A stretch of 64,000 nucleotides of DNA from Niastella sp. (GTDB lineage: Bacteria; Bacteroidota; Bacteroidia; Chitinophagales; Chitinophagaceae): assembly GCA_017744515.1 (NCBI GenBank), contig JAGIBF010000009.1, forward strand, positions 15,934 through 79,933. Direction: 5' to 3'. The translations under genes and the position numbers were made by a program. Below, one piece after another: positions 38,132 through 53,020 of this stretch; the stretch's first letter is position 1, and each line of letters begins with the position of its first letter. The notes beneath the pieces are model-generated. The model was not told where the DNA came from. It did no database searches and saw only the letters and a list, made by a program, of their open reading frames with translations.

Positions 38132-38249
38132 TTAGCAGTTGTTTGGTTGAGCCTAAAGGTACCGGTATGCTAAACAGAAATTGACTCAAAACTTAACTTT
38201 TCTTTAACCGATTTTGCCCTACTAAAACCTTTTAGCATGTGGTTTTAAC

Positions 38250-38265
38250 GCGCAACCGGTTGCGC
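38250..38265. promoter_or_regulatory. Perfect 16-bp palindrome, LacI-family-like operator
   Basis: GCGCAACCGGTTGCGC is self-complementary; 119 bp upstream of the susC start. Confidence 0.6.
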
Positions 38266-38556
38266 ATCCGAGAGAGAATTCTGCGTCGTTAATGACTCGT
38301 TAATGAGTTGTTAACGAAGCGCTGTGCATGAAGTGAGTAAGTGACCATCGGTTCTTGCTACGTCCGTAGTAAAATCTATCCAATAGCGATATTGACTGTT
38401 TTTTTTGATCACATAGGCTGTTATCCTATTAAAAGATAAGTAACCAATAAATACCTGTTTACTCCGGGCAAATCAGTAAGTGTGCTGATCAAAGAGTAAA
38501 ACGTACAGTTGTAAAGTAAAAGTGTGCTGATATTCGTAAAGGTTCGGAACGGGGTC

Positions 38557-38890
38557 TCGTATTTCTACGATGGGTGTTGTAAATACTGAAATTTGATAAT
38601 CAAGCAGTTTTCCTCTTGTGTTAAAGGAAAGGTAAAACTACTTTTACACTGTTGATAAATGATACGGTTTCCGAAAAAATCCAAACATCCTGAAAGACCG
38701 CAATATCCAGGAAAAACCAAACGTCCAGAGTCCAACGTCCAAAAAGAAACCAACTGGAACAATATCATTTAAACAACCATTTAAAATTCCAGTATCGATT
38801 ATCCAATTATCCCGGAAAATCTTCATGGTTAATGTTCATCTGAATCACGTCCAAAAGATTTTAAGCCCCGCAGCAATGTGGGGCTTTTTT
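38557..38890 (+). ncRNA. Candidate structured ncRNA, copy A of three-copy family
   Basis: TCGTA-TTTC-TACGA; GTTTTCCTCTTGTG 36 nt later; TAAATGATA(38656-38664)/TATCATTTA(38763-38771); loop AUAUCC/ACCA motifs; ATCACGTCCAAAAGATT; terminator AAGCCCC/GGGGCTT + T6. Confidence 0.72.
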
Positions 38891-39000
38891 ATGCCCATCC
38901 CCGGAGAAATAATGACAAGCTATCACGTACAAAAGGCTGTCTGTGTAGAAGAGGTGGTAGGGTAGGTCAGAGGGCGTATATTTATTAAAAGCACTTAGCC

Positions 39001-44321: not shown

Positions 44322-45041
44322 CTATAGTCTGCTCTTGCTTTTGAATGCTGCCGATTGCCGGGTCGACAAAATAATTGCCGTGCCAGTGTGCAGGCTTACC
44401 TGTAGCCTTCCGTCGGGCAGCGGTTGCACTGCTGCGATAAAGTTGGTATTGATGATGGCTGTTCTGCTGGTTCTGAAAAACATTGCCTGGTCAAGCTGTT
44501 TTTCCAGTTGATTCAGCGATCGTTTGATGTATGCTTTTTTGTTACCAAAGTATAGCCGGGCATAGTTGCCGGTAGATTCTATGAGGTATATATCCTTTAC
44601 CTGTATAAAGTGATACTGTTCCCCTTCTTTAATGAACAAGGTATGCGTACCGGGCAGTGTTTCACTCGTACTGGTCCTGACTGCGAGCATTGTCCTGATC
44701 TTTTCTATCGCTTGCGCAAAGCGTTCTTCACGGATGGGTTTTACGAGGTAATCGAGAGCATTGGCATCGAACGCCTGTACGGCATATTGGTTATACGCCG
44801 TAGTAAAAATGACTTCCGGCAGTTCTTCCAATGATTCAAGCAGATCGAACCCGGTTCGTTCAGGCATTTGTATATCGAGGAAGATAAGATCGGGATGAAG
44901 CATATTGATCTGTTGTTCCGCCTCGTCGGCATCGGCGGCCTCTGCCACCACTTCAAAGTCATTATAGGGCAGGAGGTGGCGTCTGATCTCTTCACGCGCC
45001 AGTCGTTCATCATCGATGATCAGGGTGCGGTACGGCTTCAT
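44322..45041 (-). CDS. LytTR-family response regulator
   Basis: Receiver domain (TLIIDDERLAREEI; LIFLDIQMPERTGFDLL; DYLVKPI) plus LytTR domain (YLIESTGNYARLYFGNKKAYIKRSLNQLEKQL). Confidence 0.94.
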   Translation of the reverse strand: MKPYRTLIIDDERLAREEIRRHLLPYNDFEVVAEAADADEAEQQINMLHPDLIFLDIQMPERTGFDLLESLEELPEVIFTTAYNQYAVQAFDANALDYLVKPIREERFAQAIEKIRTMLAVRTSTSETLPGTHTLFIKEGEQYHFIQVKDIYLIESTGNYARLYFGNKKAYIKRSLNQLEKQLDQAMFFRTSRTAIINTNFIAAVQPLPDGRLQVSLHTGTAIILSTRQSAAFKSKSRL

Positions 45042-46096
45042 GTGCGCGGCATGGTGATGGTGGCTAATACGGTTTCAGTAGTGAGCTGCGTAAGGTGCAG
45101 GCTGGCCTGGCCACCAAACTGCAGTTGCAGGCGCTCCTGCAGGTTCTTTAACCCCAGCCCGCCATTATGTTGCGCCTGTAATATGCCCGGGTTTTGCACC
45201 GTTGCCTGCAGGTGGCCATTGTGTTGTTCTACTTTGATGCTGATCGAGCCACCACTTTTACGTTGCGCTATTCCGTGCTTGATAGCATTTTCTACAAGCG
45301 TTTGTATGCTCAATGGCAGAATAGCAGTGTGGGCCAGTTGAACATCTATTGTTATCTGTGTATGCAATCGTTCTTCGAAGCGTAGTTTTTCCAGTTCAAG
45401 GTAGTCTTCAACAAGTGCCATTTCCTGCTGTAGGGTAATGAGTGGCGTATCCCTGTTGTACAGAGCCGTGCGCAGTACTTCAGAGAGCAGGTCGATGGCC
45501 CTGCGGGCTGCCCGTGGGTCTTCCATCACCAGCGCCTTTATATTGTTGAGCGAGTTGAAGAAGAAATGCGGATTGAGCTGGGCCGTAAGGTTATTGAGCT
45601 GCGCCTCTTTGGCGATGAGAGCCAGCCGGGCACTTTCCCTGGTGGCGTTGATCTCCCGCTGCGCGTAATGATAACCATAATAAGCCAGCAGCCAGATGCT
45701 CATGAGGCGCATGCCGGTCATAAAGGTCGTAAGGGTTTCTGACCGGAAGCTTTCTTCCAGTGTTCCGGTATAACCATATTCGAACCAATACCGGATGAGG
45801 TGGTTTTTACCGACCGTCAATAGAACGAACAGACCTCCGAGAATAATTACTGAAGGTATAAGCCTGGTGAGGAGCTTACGTGGCTGCAGCTGATGCCATC
45901 CCTGACGCACGGAGATCGTACGGTACAGGTGCGTCACAGGAATATAGATAAGCAGATCGCCCGCAAAGTGGATAACTGCCAGCCAGGGGCTGAAATTGGT
46001 GCCTATAAACCCCATAAAGTTCCAATAAAGCGAAGCCACGGACCAGCCGATAAGCTGGCATTTCCAGTAAAGTGATAGACTCCGTGTAGCTTTCAT
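45038..46096 (-). CDS. LytS-like sensor histidine kinase (His_kinase + HATPase)
   Basis: QLNNLTAQLNPHFFFNSLNNIKALV; LSIQTLVENAIKHGI; overlaps the regulator start by 4 bp. Confidence 0.94.
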   Translation of the reverse strand: MKATRSLSLYWKCQLIGWSVASLYWNFMGFIGTNFSPWLAVIHFAGDLLIYIPVTHLYRTISVRQGWHQLQPRKLLTRLIPSVIILGGLFVLLTVGKNHLIRYWFEYGYTGTLEESFRSETLTTFMTGMRLMSIWLLAYYGYHYAQREINATRESARLALIAKEAQLNNLTAQLNPHFFFNSLNNIKALVMEDPRAARRAIDLLSEVLRTALYNRDTPLITLQQEMALVEDYLELEKLRFEERLHTQITIDVQLAHTAILPLSIQTLVENAIKHGIAQRKSGGSISIKVEQHNGHLQATVQNPGILQAQHNGGLGLKNLQERLQLQFGGQASLHLTQLTTETVLATITMPRT

Positions 46097-46242: not shown

Positions 46243-46566
46243 TCGTAGATTTACGATCCGCGCCGTACTTGATGCAGTTTGTAGATTGGGCAGTTTTGCT
46301 CTTGTATCCACAAGTGGGGATAAGTATTTTTGTATTGTTGATTAATTGATACGGTTTCCAAAAATCCAACGGCGCCCATGGCCAAATATCCTGAAAAACC
46401 AAGGCTCTGATAGCAACCAATATCCAAAAACCAGGAAACAATATCAGTTAACGGCCCTTCAAAATCCAATGTCGATATCCAATTATCCGGGAAAAGCTGT
46501 GTGATTTATTTTCCTGATGACCGTCCAAACGATTTAAAGGCCCTGATTTTTCAGGGCCTTTGTCTT
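46243..46566 (+). ncRNA. Candidate structured ncRNA, copy B of three-copy family
   Basis: TCGTA-GATT-TACGA; GTTTTGCTCTTGT 36 nt later; TTAATTGATA.CG.GTTTCC(46342-46359)/GGAAAC.AA.TATCAGTTAA(46434-46451); loop motifs; terminator AAAGGCCCTGA-TTTT-TCAGGGCCTTT(46536-46561). Confidence 0.77.
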
Positions 46567-46661
46567 TTATGTACCTTCCTCTGTTTGTTACTCCACTGTT
46601 ATGGCTGTTGGCATTTGAGTAAAATGCTTTATTTTGATGCCATTACTTTTCAATTGCCTGT

Positions 46662-47522: not shown

Positions 47523-47840
47523 CCGTAATTTTACGAAATAGCCCGTAGATGGTGAAGTGATATGAAAGGGCGGTTTTGCTCTTGTGCCCGCAGGCGCTGG
47601 ATGGTAGCTTTGTATTGTTGATTAAATGATACGGTTTCCCAAGTCCAATGTATCCATGAAAAACCAGTCTTAAATAGGGATGCCAATATCTGAAAAACCA
47701 TGGGAAACGATATTATTTAATGAACAACCAAGCCTTATCCTGATCCAATATCCAGAAGAACCAAAGGTTAAGTTTTCCTGATCACGTCCAAAAGATTCTG
47801 TACAAGGGCGAGTTGTTTTTCCAAACGACTCGCCTTTCTG
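47523..47840 (+). ncRNA. Candidate structured ncRNA, copy C of three-copy family
   Basis: CCGTA-ATTT-TACGA; GTTTTGCTCTTGTG 36 nt later; ATTAAATGATA.CG.GTTTCCC(47621-47640)/GGGAAAC.GA.TATTATTTAAT(47702-47721); ATCACGTCCAAAAGATT; terminator AAGGGCGAGTTGTTT/AAACGACTCGCCTTT(47804-47837). Confidence 0.77.
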
Positions 47841-47847
47841 TTTATGA

Positions 47848-49810: not shown

Positions 49811-52800
49811 ATGAGAAAAATACTCGCATCGCTCCTGGTGGCATACCTATGTTTACTGGGAACTTCTTCTTTTGCACAGCGTGATACAAGTCTTGTGGCA
49901 CGCATCAACCATTTGATCAGTCAGGAAATCAATCTATCGCTCAGGGCAGATAGTGTTGCTACACAGGCTGGTCTGCTGCAGGTTTATTTCAATACGGGCA
50001 GCGCACTGCGGAAGGGTGTCTTGTCTGAAACCGAATCTGAATTATTGACGGAACTGTTGGTCCACCTTACTACTGAAACGAATACCAATAACATAGTGTT
50101 GCTTGCCAGAGATGCAGCTTCTGGCAAGTGGCAATCCCTGGATTATTTTACAGATCAGCCAGCGGTATCGAAGTTCATACCTGTGAAGAACCATGATGCG
50201 TATCCGGAAAAAGCCGGTCAGGTCCGCTCCTCCAACAGCAGGGTATTTCCCGGTGGCGGTATTCCGGGCGTCACCGGAGCGCTCTCGGGAAAATCAGTCT
50301 GGTTAAGTCCGGGGCATGGCTGGCAAAATACGGGCACTGGCTATACCACGCAACGCGGCACCACCAACCAGGTGGTGGAGGATTTCACTACGGCTGAAAC
50401 GGTGGACTACTACCTGCAACATTATTTGATGAATGCCGGCGCCAGTGTATGGAGCGTGCGCGAGCGGGATGTGAACCCGGAGGAGATCATTGTAGACAAT
50501 GACCAGGGCCCACCCGGTTACACGGAAACAGGCACCTGGGCCAATGGTACGATTGCCGGTTATAATGGTACATACCGCACCAGTTCGGCCGATGTTATGG
50601 AGTCGGCTGCGGCTATTTTCACACCATCTGTTACGGTCAGCGGATATTATTGGGTATCGGTACGCTTTATCAGTGGTGTGAACCGCGCTGCCGATGTGAA
50701 GTACACAATTAATCATGCGGGCGGTACTGCTACTTATACAGTGAACCAGGAAGTGCATGGTGATACCTGGGTTTACCTGGGCCAATATTACTTTTTTGCC
50801 GGTGGTAACAACAAAGTGGTCATCAGCAATCAATCCGCTGATGTGGGGCAGGCAGTAGTGGCGGATGCTGTGCGATTGGGTGGTGGTATTGGCATCGAGC
50901 CCGATTGTGCTACCGGTGGCGTAGCCAGTGGTAAACCCCGCTTTGAAGAGGCGGCCCGTCAATATGCACGCTTTCAGGGGCACCCGGTATGCCGGGAGGA
51001 TGTTACGGTGCGTCCTGTGTATACAGAGTGGGAATTGTCGAAAGGCCTGCCTGCTGAGATCAACAATGCTATCTATGTAGCTTTTCATACCAATGCCGGT
51101 GGTGGCACGGGTACGGAGACGTATCGTTACAATGGATTGGGTGCTTCGCAACCGGTCATTACGTCCGGCAGCACAGAGTTGCGCGATAGCATTCACCGGC
51201 AGATCATTGCCGACCTGCGTGCGGGCTGGCGCAGCACCTGGACCGATCGTGGTGTAAAAGAAGCCAACTTTGGCGAGTTGCGGGAACTGCGCACGATCCC
51301 GGGCACACTGATCGAGTTGGCCTTTCATGATCTGGCTGCCGATGCTACCGATCTGCGGGCGCCTGAGTTTCGCCGCATGGCGGCACGCGCTATTTATAAA
51401 GGCATAGTAAAGTTCTTCAATTACCGTGATGGCATTCCGCTGGTGTTCCTGCCCGAGCAGCCTACAGGTGTGCGCGCAAAGAATATTGGTGGTGGACAGA
51501 TCATGCTCAACTGGACAGCGCCGGTAACCGGCGGCATCTTTGGTCATGCTGCTACCAGTTATCGCGTATATGTAAGTGAGAATGGCCGTGGTTATGATAA
51601 TCCCACAGAAGTGCTCACCACGGATTATTCTTTTAGCGGAACCGCTGGTAATACGTACTTTTTTAAGATAACAGCAGTGAATGCGGGTGGCGAGTCTTTT
51701 GCTTCAGGTGTGGTAGCTGCGCGTATTCCTTTGCCTGGTGAAACGGTGAAGTTCCTCGTCGTAGATGGTTTCGACAGGCTGGATGCTTCTGCTATGTTGC
51801 TGAAGAACGAAGGAGCGGTACTGGGCAATGTGCGCAGAATGGTGCTGGACAAGATGAACAATTATCATTACATGGTGGAGCATGGCACTGGCCTGGCAAG
51901 TTGCAACCTTGCTTTTGATGGCGCACAGAATGAAGCAGTGGCAGCAGGCAGCGTGAACCTCGCTGATTATTTTGCCGTCGATTGGTTTGTAGGAGAGGAG
52001 AGTACGGCCGACAGAACACTGGACGCCACAGAAAAGCAATTGCTGAAGAATTACCTCGATGGTGGGGGACGATTGCTGATATCGGGTGCGGAAATCGGCT
52101 GGGACCTGGGCAGGGCCGCATCTGCCAATGCAGACCTGAACTTTTACAACAATTACCTCAAAGCCCTGTATGTAAGTGATGGTGCAGGCACTTATAATTT
52201 TACCGGTACGCCTGCTTTGTTGAATGGTGGTAATGGTGTGTTCGGCAATGGCGTGAATGGTTATTACAATGTCGATTTCCCCGATGTGATCAATGTGAAC
52301 GGTGGTTCGGAGATTGTGTTGAATTACAGTGGTGGCACGGGCGGTGGCGCTGGCATTGGCTACAAAGGGGCCAACTTCAGGGTACTGTACCTCGGCTTTC
52401 CGATCGAAGCCATTACGGATGAAACGGTCAGGAATAATCTCTTCTGTCAGTCGGCCAATTACCTGTCCGCCAGTACAACACTGCCGGTGCATGGTTTTAT
52501 GCTTACCGGCCGGGCAGAGTCTGGCGCCAACAGGTTGCAGTGGACTACCCAATCAGAAATAAATACAGATCATTTTATCATAGAACGCAGTGTGGATGGT
52601 GTTCACTTCATGCCGGTGGGCAGACCGGTGAAAGCGCAAGGTTCTGCGGCTGCGGGACACACTTACTCCTGGATCGATCACGATGTGCTGCCCATGGCCC
52701 AATACCGGATAAAGGGTGTGGATGTAAACCTCTATGAAACCCTTTCCAATATTGTGATCATCCGCAACACGCCCGCGCGTATGTTCTATGTAGTAGAAAA

Positions 52801-53020
52801 TCCTGCTGTATCCACCATTCGCATGCGCGTCAATCATGCCGGTGCTTTCCGGCTCCAGCTGGCCAATGCACAGGGACAGGTGTTGTACCGGTCAAGCCAC
52901 GCAGCAACAGGTGGCGGGGAAGTGAAGGTGCCTGTCAACGGGTTAAGCAAAGGCGTTTATTGGTTGTCTGTTTACCCGGATGGCGAAGCAGTTCAAACGT
53001 TCAGAATAATGCTTCAATAG
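49811..53020 (+). CDS. Secreted N-acetylmuramoyl-L-alanine amidase with golvesin-C-like insertion, FnIII-like domain and T9SS C-terminal signal
   Basis: VWLSPGHGW...ETVDYYLQHYLMNAGASVWSVRERD; FHTNAGGGTGTETY; IPGTLIELAFHD; golvesin-like GTYRTSSADVMESAAAIFTPSVTVSGYYWVSVRF; T9SS C-term. Confidence 0.8.
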   Translation: MRKILASLLVAYLCLLGTSSFAQRDTSLVARINHLISQEINLSLRADSVATQAGLLQVYFNTGSALRKGVLSETESELLTELLVHLTTETNTNNIVLLARDAASGKWQSLDYFTDQPAVSKFIPVKNHDAYPEKAGQVRSSNSRVFPGGGIPGVTGALSGKSVWLSPGHGWQNTGTGYTTQRGTTNQVVEDFTTAETVDYYLQHYLMNAGASVWSVRERDVNPEEIIVDNDQGPPGYTETGTWANGTIAGYNGTYRTSSADVMESAAAIFTPSVTVSGYYWVSVRFISGVNRAADVKYTINHAGGTATYTVNQEVHGDTWVYLGQYYFFAGGNNKVVISNQSADVGQAVVADAVRLGGGIGIEPDCATGGVASGKPRFEEAARQYARFQGHPVCREDVTVRPVYTEWELSKGLPAEINNAIYVAFHTNAGGGTGTETYRYNGLGASQPVITSGSTELRDSIHRQIIADLRAGWRSTWTDRGVKEANFGELRELRTIPGTLIELAFHDLAADATDLRAPEFRRMAARAIYKGIVKFFNYRDGIPLVFLPEQPTGVRAKNIGGGQIMLNWTAPVTGGIFGHAATSYRVYVSENGRGYDNPTEVLTTDYSFSGTAGNTYFFKITAVNAGGESFASGVVAARIPLPGETVKFLVVDGFDRLDASAMLLKNEGAVLGNVRRMVLDKMNNYHYMVEHGTGLASCNLAFDGAQNEAVAAGSVNLADYFAVDWFVGEESTADRTLDATEKQLLKNYLDGGGRLLISGAEIGWDLGRAASANADLNFYNNYLKALYVSDGAGTYNFTGTPALLNGGNGVFGNGVNGYYNVDFPDVINVNGGSEIVLNYSGGTGGGAGIGYKGANFRVLYLGFPIEAITDETVRNNLFCQSANYLSASTTLPVHGFMLTGRAESGANRLQWTTQSEINTDHFIIERSVDGVHFMPVGRPVKAQGSAAAGHTYSWIDHDVLPMAQYRIKGVDVNLYETLSNIVIIRNTPARMFYVVENPAVSTIRMRVNHAGAFRLQLANAQGQVLYRSSHAATGGGEVKVPVNGLSKGVYWLSVYPDGEAVQTFRIMLQ

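Follow-up and report, generated by a model that had tools for sequence, protein, structure and literature searches.

We found that the 64,000-nucleotide stretch of Niastella sp. DNA analysed here (the window) carries three members, A, B and C, of a family of eight paralogous genes for predicted small RNAs, with members D to H located elsewhere in the genome. Computational comparison established the family itself, its synteny, a common operator and promoter, a closing stem, an array of short motifs and a linkage to genes for response regulators. We consider it an even bet that these features belong to a Gac/Rsm-like circuit, in which regulators of the NarL family would switch on eight multicopy decoy RNAs as one regulon. 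We hold it somewhat short of even, and so put it forward tentatively, that Bacteroidota evolved such a circuit independently and that the eight decoys titrate an undescribed UCC/ACC-binding RNA-binding protein. Global post-transcriptional control is poorly known in the Bacteroidota, and eight co-regulated RNAs together with two highly conserved regulators would point to a global circuit which has seemingly not been described.

Copy A occupies the forward strand between a susC promoter region and a gene encoding a PD40 lipoprotein. Its operator (38557–38590, +) consists of TCGTATTTCTACGA (38557–38570) and the half-site GTAAATACTGAA (38579–38590), which are 20 bp apart with centres near −87 and −66, and is followed by a promoter (38613–38646, +) made up of CTCTTG at −33, N20 and TACTTTTA at −7. 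The RNA is predicted to start near 38651, at GUUGAU, because of the position of the −7 box TAnnTTTG, and would run for about 240 nt (38651–38890, +), an extent which also rests on the promoter and terminator positions and on the conserved block. Within it are found the 5′ strand of the closing stem (38651–38672, +; GUUGAUAAAUGAUACGGUUUCC), which shows covariation in the family, the 3′ strand with which it pairs (38755–38779, +; UGGAACAAUAUCAUUUAAACAACCA), an array of UCCAA and AACCA motifs covering the stem loop and the stretch right after it (38678–38813, +), and an intrinsic terminator (38863–38890, +; AAGCCCC-N10-GGGGCTTTTTT), which forms a strong hairpin in the fold.

An earlier note, made from the letters of this DNA, had named a series of sequence blocks for copy A, and all of them were found within 38557–38890, including the terminator block at 38863–38890. 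The perfect 9 bp stem which it described was borne out, as TAAATGATA (38656–38664) pairs with TATCATTTA (38763–38771) along its whole length, and its distance of about 7.5 kb between A and B was measured as 7.7 kb. The AATCACGTCCAAAAGATT block had 2 matches in the window at ≤ 3 mismatches, against 0.07 expected. When 38132–39000 was aligned to four related species the conserved part ran from 38557–38895, 38466–38895, 38547–38890 and 38597–38896 respectively, with identities of 78–84%; these are nearly the ends which the note had given for the element. In this comparison with relatives, 38557–38895 was the sole conserved part of an 869-base gap, and its 3′ edge was the terminator, i.e. before PD40. 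The note was also right in that the borders of the element do not depend on susC or PD40. RNA A was kept in the checked relatives, in which susC was not found next to it.

On the strand of A, copy B follows at a distance of 7.7 kb and copy C at 9.0 kb downstream, with C starting 1.3 kb after B. Copy B has an operator of two half-sites, 20 bp apart (46245–46276, +), a promoter of CTCTTG N20 TATTTTTG (46299–46332, +) and an RNA (46337–46567, +) with a stem, a UCC array and a terminator (fold z-score −3.1). Copy C has an operator which is a perfect match to the operator pattern (47525–47556, +), a promoter of CTCTTG N20 TAGCTTTG (47579–47612, +) and an RNA (47617–47843, +) with the same three elements (fold z-score −3.5). 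Orthologues of both RNAs were found in four further genomes. The −7 boxes of A, B and C all follow CTCTTG by 20 bases, and the copies are about 60–70% alike in sequence; a BLAST search of the 7.6 Mb own genome with copy B returned only these 3 clear copies.

With a model of the operator, promoter and 5′ stem (R3, built from 30 sequences), every one of the five genus genomes gave eight copies, no more and no fewer, at E values ≤ 8e−6 and followed by a jump to 0.04, and the A/B/C trio was present in all five genus members in a search with a promoter and 5′ model. It should be noted that members of the family went into models R1 and R3 and therefore match them by construction. Of the copies counted in the other four genus members, however, most had no part in building these models, and the same holds for nearly all matches linked to a regulator. 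The fourth paralogue, D, adjoins lysS and an SDR gene and has its own conserved 3′ domain. Of 299 Chitinophagaceae genomes sampled, 33 (10 genera) had a D gene, always as a single copy, and none was found outside this family among 399 sampled Bacteroidota genomes. A pattern for the 3′ domain matched Chitinophagaceae records and also scattered ones in Nostoc and other phyla, which we took to be unrelated. Across the D RNA (L064:1771–1878) and the D-type loci this domain was nearly invariant (UAAAAUUUGUACCUAUUGAUGACCC...GGUUUCGUACAAA), and its UUUCGUACAAA has two possible pairing partners, UUUGUAC and CCUACGAAA, giving two mutually exclusive hairpins. The fifth RNA, E, was found through an operator match with 2 mismatches and lies next to aspS, divergent from a response regulator gene. 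Aminoacyl-tRNA synthetase genes adjoin two of the eight RNAs: lysS at D (L064) and aspS at E (L109). Most of the eight genes, including A–C, end in a terminator, and no clear terminator was seen just behind E. Beyond the array, each RNA type also has a conserved section specific to that type. No Rfam family matched at gathering score, with weak matches on A confined to its 3′, terminator half, and nothing matching RNAs of this kind from Chitinophagaceae or Bacteroidetes was found in the open-access literature, to which the search was limited. The eight-copy family is apparently undescribed so far.

The operator upstream of each of the eight genes is TCGTA-N4-TACGA with a second half-site 20 bp on, a layout which was conserved over 30 loci. 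When the whole own genome was searched with the operator pattern (≤ 3 mismatches), A, B, C and D were found at ≤ 1 mismatch and nothing else was found at that level. Its position at about −87 and −66 is where activators usually bind. The family promoter, CTCTTG-N20-TAnnTTTG, is of the Bacteroidota type, for which the −7 box is TAnnTTTG (PMC9723704), and its spacing was constant across the family. Judged against this layout, GTTTTCCTCTTGTG, which had been counted among the blocks of the RNA, is most probably the −33 promoter region and outside the RNA. The earlier reading of a noncoding RNA family with a real stem, an intrinsic terminator and several copies stood, but the shared operator, copies D–H and the linked response regulators were absent from it.

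Two of the RNAs are located beside genes for response regulators: the divergent neighbour of E is RR1 and that of F is RR2. Both regulators are Response_reg + GerE proteins of the NarL/FixJ family and sequence kin of VraR, and the identity of RR1 was 88–98% in the closest genera. A family RNA was found divergently beside RR1 in 20 of the 29 assessable genomes, belonging to 7 genera, and beside RR2 in nine of nine genomes, with the operator between the RNA and the regulator gene for both RR1 and RR2. Nine genomes contained RR1 with no detectable RNA alongside, also when filters were switched off. As the operator is shared, we infer common control of all eight RNAs, in which RR1 and/or RR2 would also bind the other six operators. 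Next to RNA F the operator/promoter model also gave weak matches on the other strand (L274:2905–3025 and L272:7223–7322), a possible sign that the RR2 genes have a comparable operator of their own.

The closing stem is formed by the first 20 or so bases of the RNA and a strand which lies about 110 bases further on. In the family alignment there were changes on both sides in 10 of 15 pairs and 78% of cells were paired; the covariation score of this stem was reached by none of 500 shuffles and by no slid version. For 53 RNAs, the 5′ strand gave a mean of −20.0 kcal/mol with its own downstream sequence, compared to −13.7 kcal/mol with sequences from other genera, and the own strand beat 90% of swaps in 40 of these RNAs. 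The RNA strand was assigned on the basis of the promoter and terminators; the numbers of G-U and A-C cells in the stem (28 vs 22) were too close to set it. We also considered a peptide gene and rejected it, as A, B and C contain indels which shift the reading frame from one species to another, and the species have no start-to-stop frame in common.

The stem loop and the stretch following it are rich in AUCCA, UCCAA and ACCA. AUCCA and UCCAA were over-represented in the A/B/C and D RNAs, with AUCCA found 161 times in 30 D-type RNAs against 30 expected. The UCC count exceeded that of dinucleotide shuffles in all eight own RNAs (for example 10 vs 2.2 in A and 23 vs 4.6 in G), although the excess in F was marginal (0.047), and the UCC motifs were less paired than average in seven of the eight. 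There were between 5 and 23 UCC motifs per RNA and about 85 per genome. Within 150 bases, A, B, C, D, G and H had 8–15 motif matches (11 for A), E had 6 and F had 3, compared to a background maximum of 7 in 0.8 Mb of a relative read on both strands (1.6 Mb); the arrays of E and F are weak. RNA G (L305) has a second, very dense array after the stem, which brings it to 23 UCC motifs in about 440 nt, and it is the strongest candidate for a decoy.

These features suggest the following circuit. The eight RNA genes of each genome would form one regulon, in which RR1 and/or RR2 would bind the GTA-N4-TAC operator about 65–90 bp upstream of the start, and this binding would activate the RNA genes, whose promoter is of the housekeeping type. 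Every one of the RNAs would display many mostly unpaired UCC/ACC motifs above its closing stem and so act as a multi-site decoy for a partner with a matching recognition site; the likeliest partner is an RNA-binding protein. Its uptake would alter the translation or stability of the mRNA targets of that partner. Transcription, regulator binding, activation and decoy action are all predicted steps. In our own ranking a decoy acting on a protein comes first and base pairing second. The arrays could serve as bait for protein or mRNA partners and the operator as a handle on the signal pathway and, if the proposal is true, the RNAs would lead to an undescribed RNA-binding regulator.

The RsmX/Y/Z and CsrB/C RNAs are under the control of a NarL-family response regulator. 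The Gac/Rsm and BarA/UvrY-Csr systems resemble the family described here in having several RNA genes, a palindromic operator, a repeated unpaired motif and a regulator of this type, which in our family is linked to RNA genes and would control them, and for RsmX/Y/Z and CsrB/C the several RNA genes, the palindromic upstream operator and the repeated short unpaired motif have been described (PMC2375449). However, the motif of CsrB/RsmZ is GGA, whereas here it is AUCCA/UCCAA/ACCA, and our RNAs also differ from Csr/Rsm RNAs in their operator, their long closing stem and the lack of an Rfam match. CsrB/RsmZ-type RNAs which sequester CsrA were therefore rejected as an identity for the family, since the enriched motif is not GGA and the own genome had no match to CsrA (PF02599); for these reasons membership in the Csr/Rsm RNAs fails, while the analogy holds. 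With this circuit, the logic known from Gac/Rsm and LhrC would have a further, independent instance in a phylum which lacks Shine-Dalgarno sequences.

The csRNAs of streptococci are multicopy sRNAs under a two-component system and, like LhrC1-5 of Listeria, share with our family the multiple copies, the redundant UCC-type motifs and the two-component control, which for ours is a prediction. It is conceivable, though we lean against it, that the eight RNAs are base-pairing sRNAs of this kind, with the repeated UCC/ACC as redundant seeds for G-rich mRNA sites, as in LhrC or in FopS with other seeds. There are precedents for this in LhrC1-5, multicopy sRNAs with repeated UCCC seeds under the LisRK two-component system (PMC4132741), and within the phylum in the multicopy FopS family, which represses susC mRNAs (PMC11697453), and the conserved part that every RNA type has beyond its array would also suit base pairing. 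However, Bacteroidota mRNAs are without the Shine-Dalgarno sequence, which is the usual target of UCCC seeds (noted in PMC9723704), and the 23 UCC motifs in RNA G are more than seeds would need. In a scan of the start regions of 546 genes, carried out on 0.8 Mb of a relative in place of the own genome, neither the motif nor its complement was notably enriched at start codons, AACCRA showing a mild 1.8-fold rise, and the complements UUGGA, UGGAU and AGGAU were if anything rarer there than further upstream.

The known base-pairing RNAs also differ from the family in their anatomy. Each of the five LisRK-controlled LhrC RNAs carries three UCCC seeds and acts by base pairing, and the paper describing them itself draws the parallel to Rsm RNAs (PMC4132741); the seeds bind a Firmicutes mRNA ahead of its start codon, whereas here there are 5–23 UCC motifs in a phylum without Shine-Dalgarno sequences. 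The FopS/GibS sRNAs of Bacteroides are, as here, multicopy Bacteroidota sRNAs with housekeeping-type promoters and terminators (PMC11697453), but FopS has a single-stranded 5′ R1 seed followed by a terminator hairpin, and this described anatomy sets it apart from RNAs with a covarying 5′ closing stem and an array. Rfp18 of Flavobacterium is likewise a conserved Bacteroidota sRNA; in the part of its description available to us, the pairing region is the third stem-loop and no motif array or shared operator is reported (PMC9723704). The RbpB motif, GUAGGAUA (PMC12119571), differs from the array motif found here. In the D RNA (L064 around 1771) AUCCUAC is complementary to most of this Bacteroides motif.

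A decoy for a specific RNA-binding protein is also to be distinguished from an array which titrates a general factor, such as Rho, the ribosome or proteins which handle tRNAs and recognise UCCA/ACCA ends. We regard this as improbable. The motif resembles the NCCA ends of tRNAs and the arrays are rich in C, poor in G and for the most part unpaired; lysS beside D and aspS beside E would also fit, but these tRNA-synthetase neighbours may be due to chance.

The gene neighbourhoods of the RNAs in the window were well conserved. In the five genus members, A adjoins the PD40 gene wherever PD40 was found, B lies beside a 3-keto-disaccharide hydrolase gene, and C is near the same gene and, where it is present, a Na/H antiporter gene. 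The earlier note had proposed that the unit moves or duplicates independently of its neighbours; this did not hold, as the order, strand and flanking genes of A, B and C were constant in all five, and because of this constancy we read the three copies as old duplications which have been kept in place. A LytTR response regulator and a LytS-type histidine kinase (44322–46096, −; identified by Pfam) are ordinary neighbours and are not needed for the RNAs, since in the corresponding region of one relative (G219) this pair has no match, yet A, B and C are all kept. We therefore discarded the idea, attractive at first, that the LytTR regulator next to copy B controls the RNAs; the operator tracks the NarL-type regulators. 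In G219 (L053), other reading frames fill the site between A and B which is held elsewhere by the LytTR regulator and kinase.

It is very unlikely that the RNAs are 5′ leaders or cis-regulators of the downstream gene, which for A would be PD40. Both A and B are followed by a gene which has their orientation, but terminators close A, B and C ahead of the next gene, C faces the convergent Na/H antiporter gene, the neighbours vary between copies and the conserved block stops at the terminator. That the elements are repeats of a mobile or selfish kind (MITE, REP or retron-like) which spread independently of genes can practically be dismissed, for although several alike copies occur in differing gene contexts, their positions, strand and neighbours are constant in five species, the copy number is eight each time, the borders are the operator and the terminator, and the copies are merely about 60–70% alike. 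Further along the window, 49811–53020 encodes a large protein which combines Golvesin C-terminal, amidase_3 and fn3 domains.
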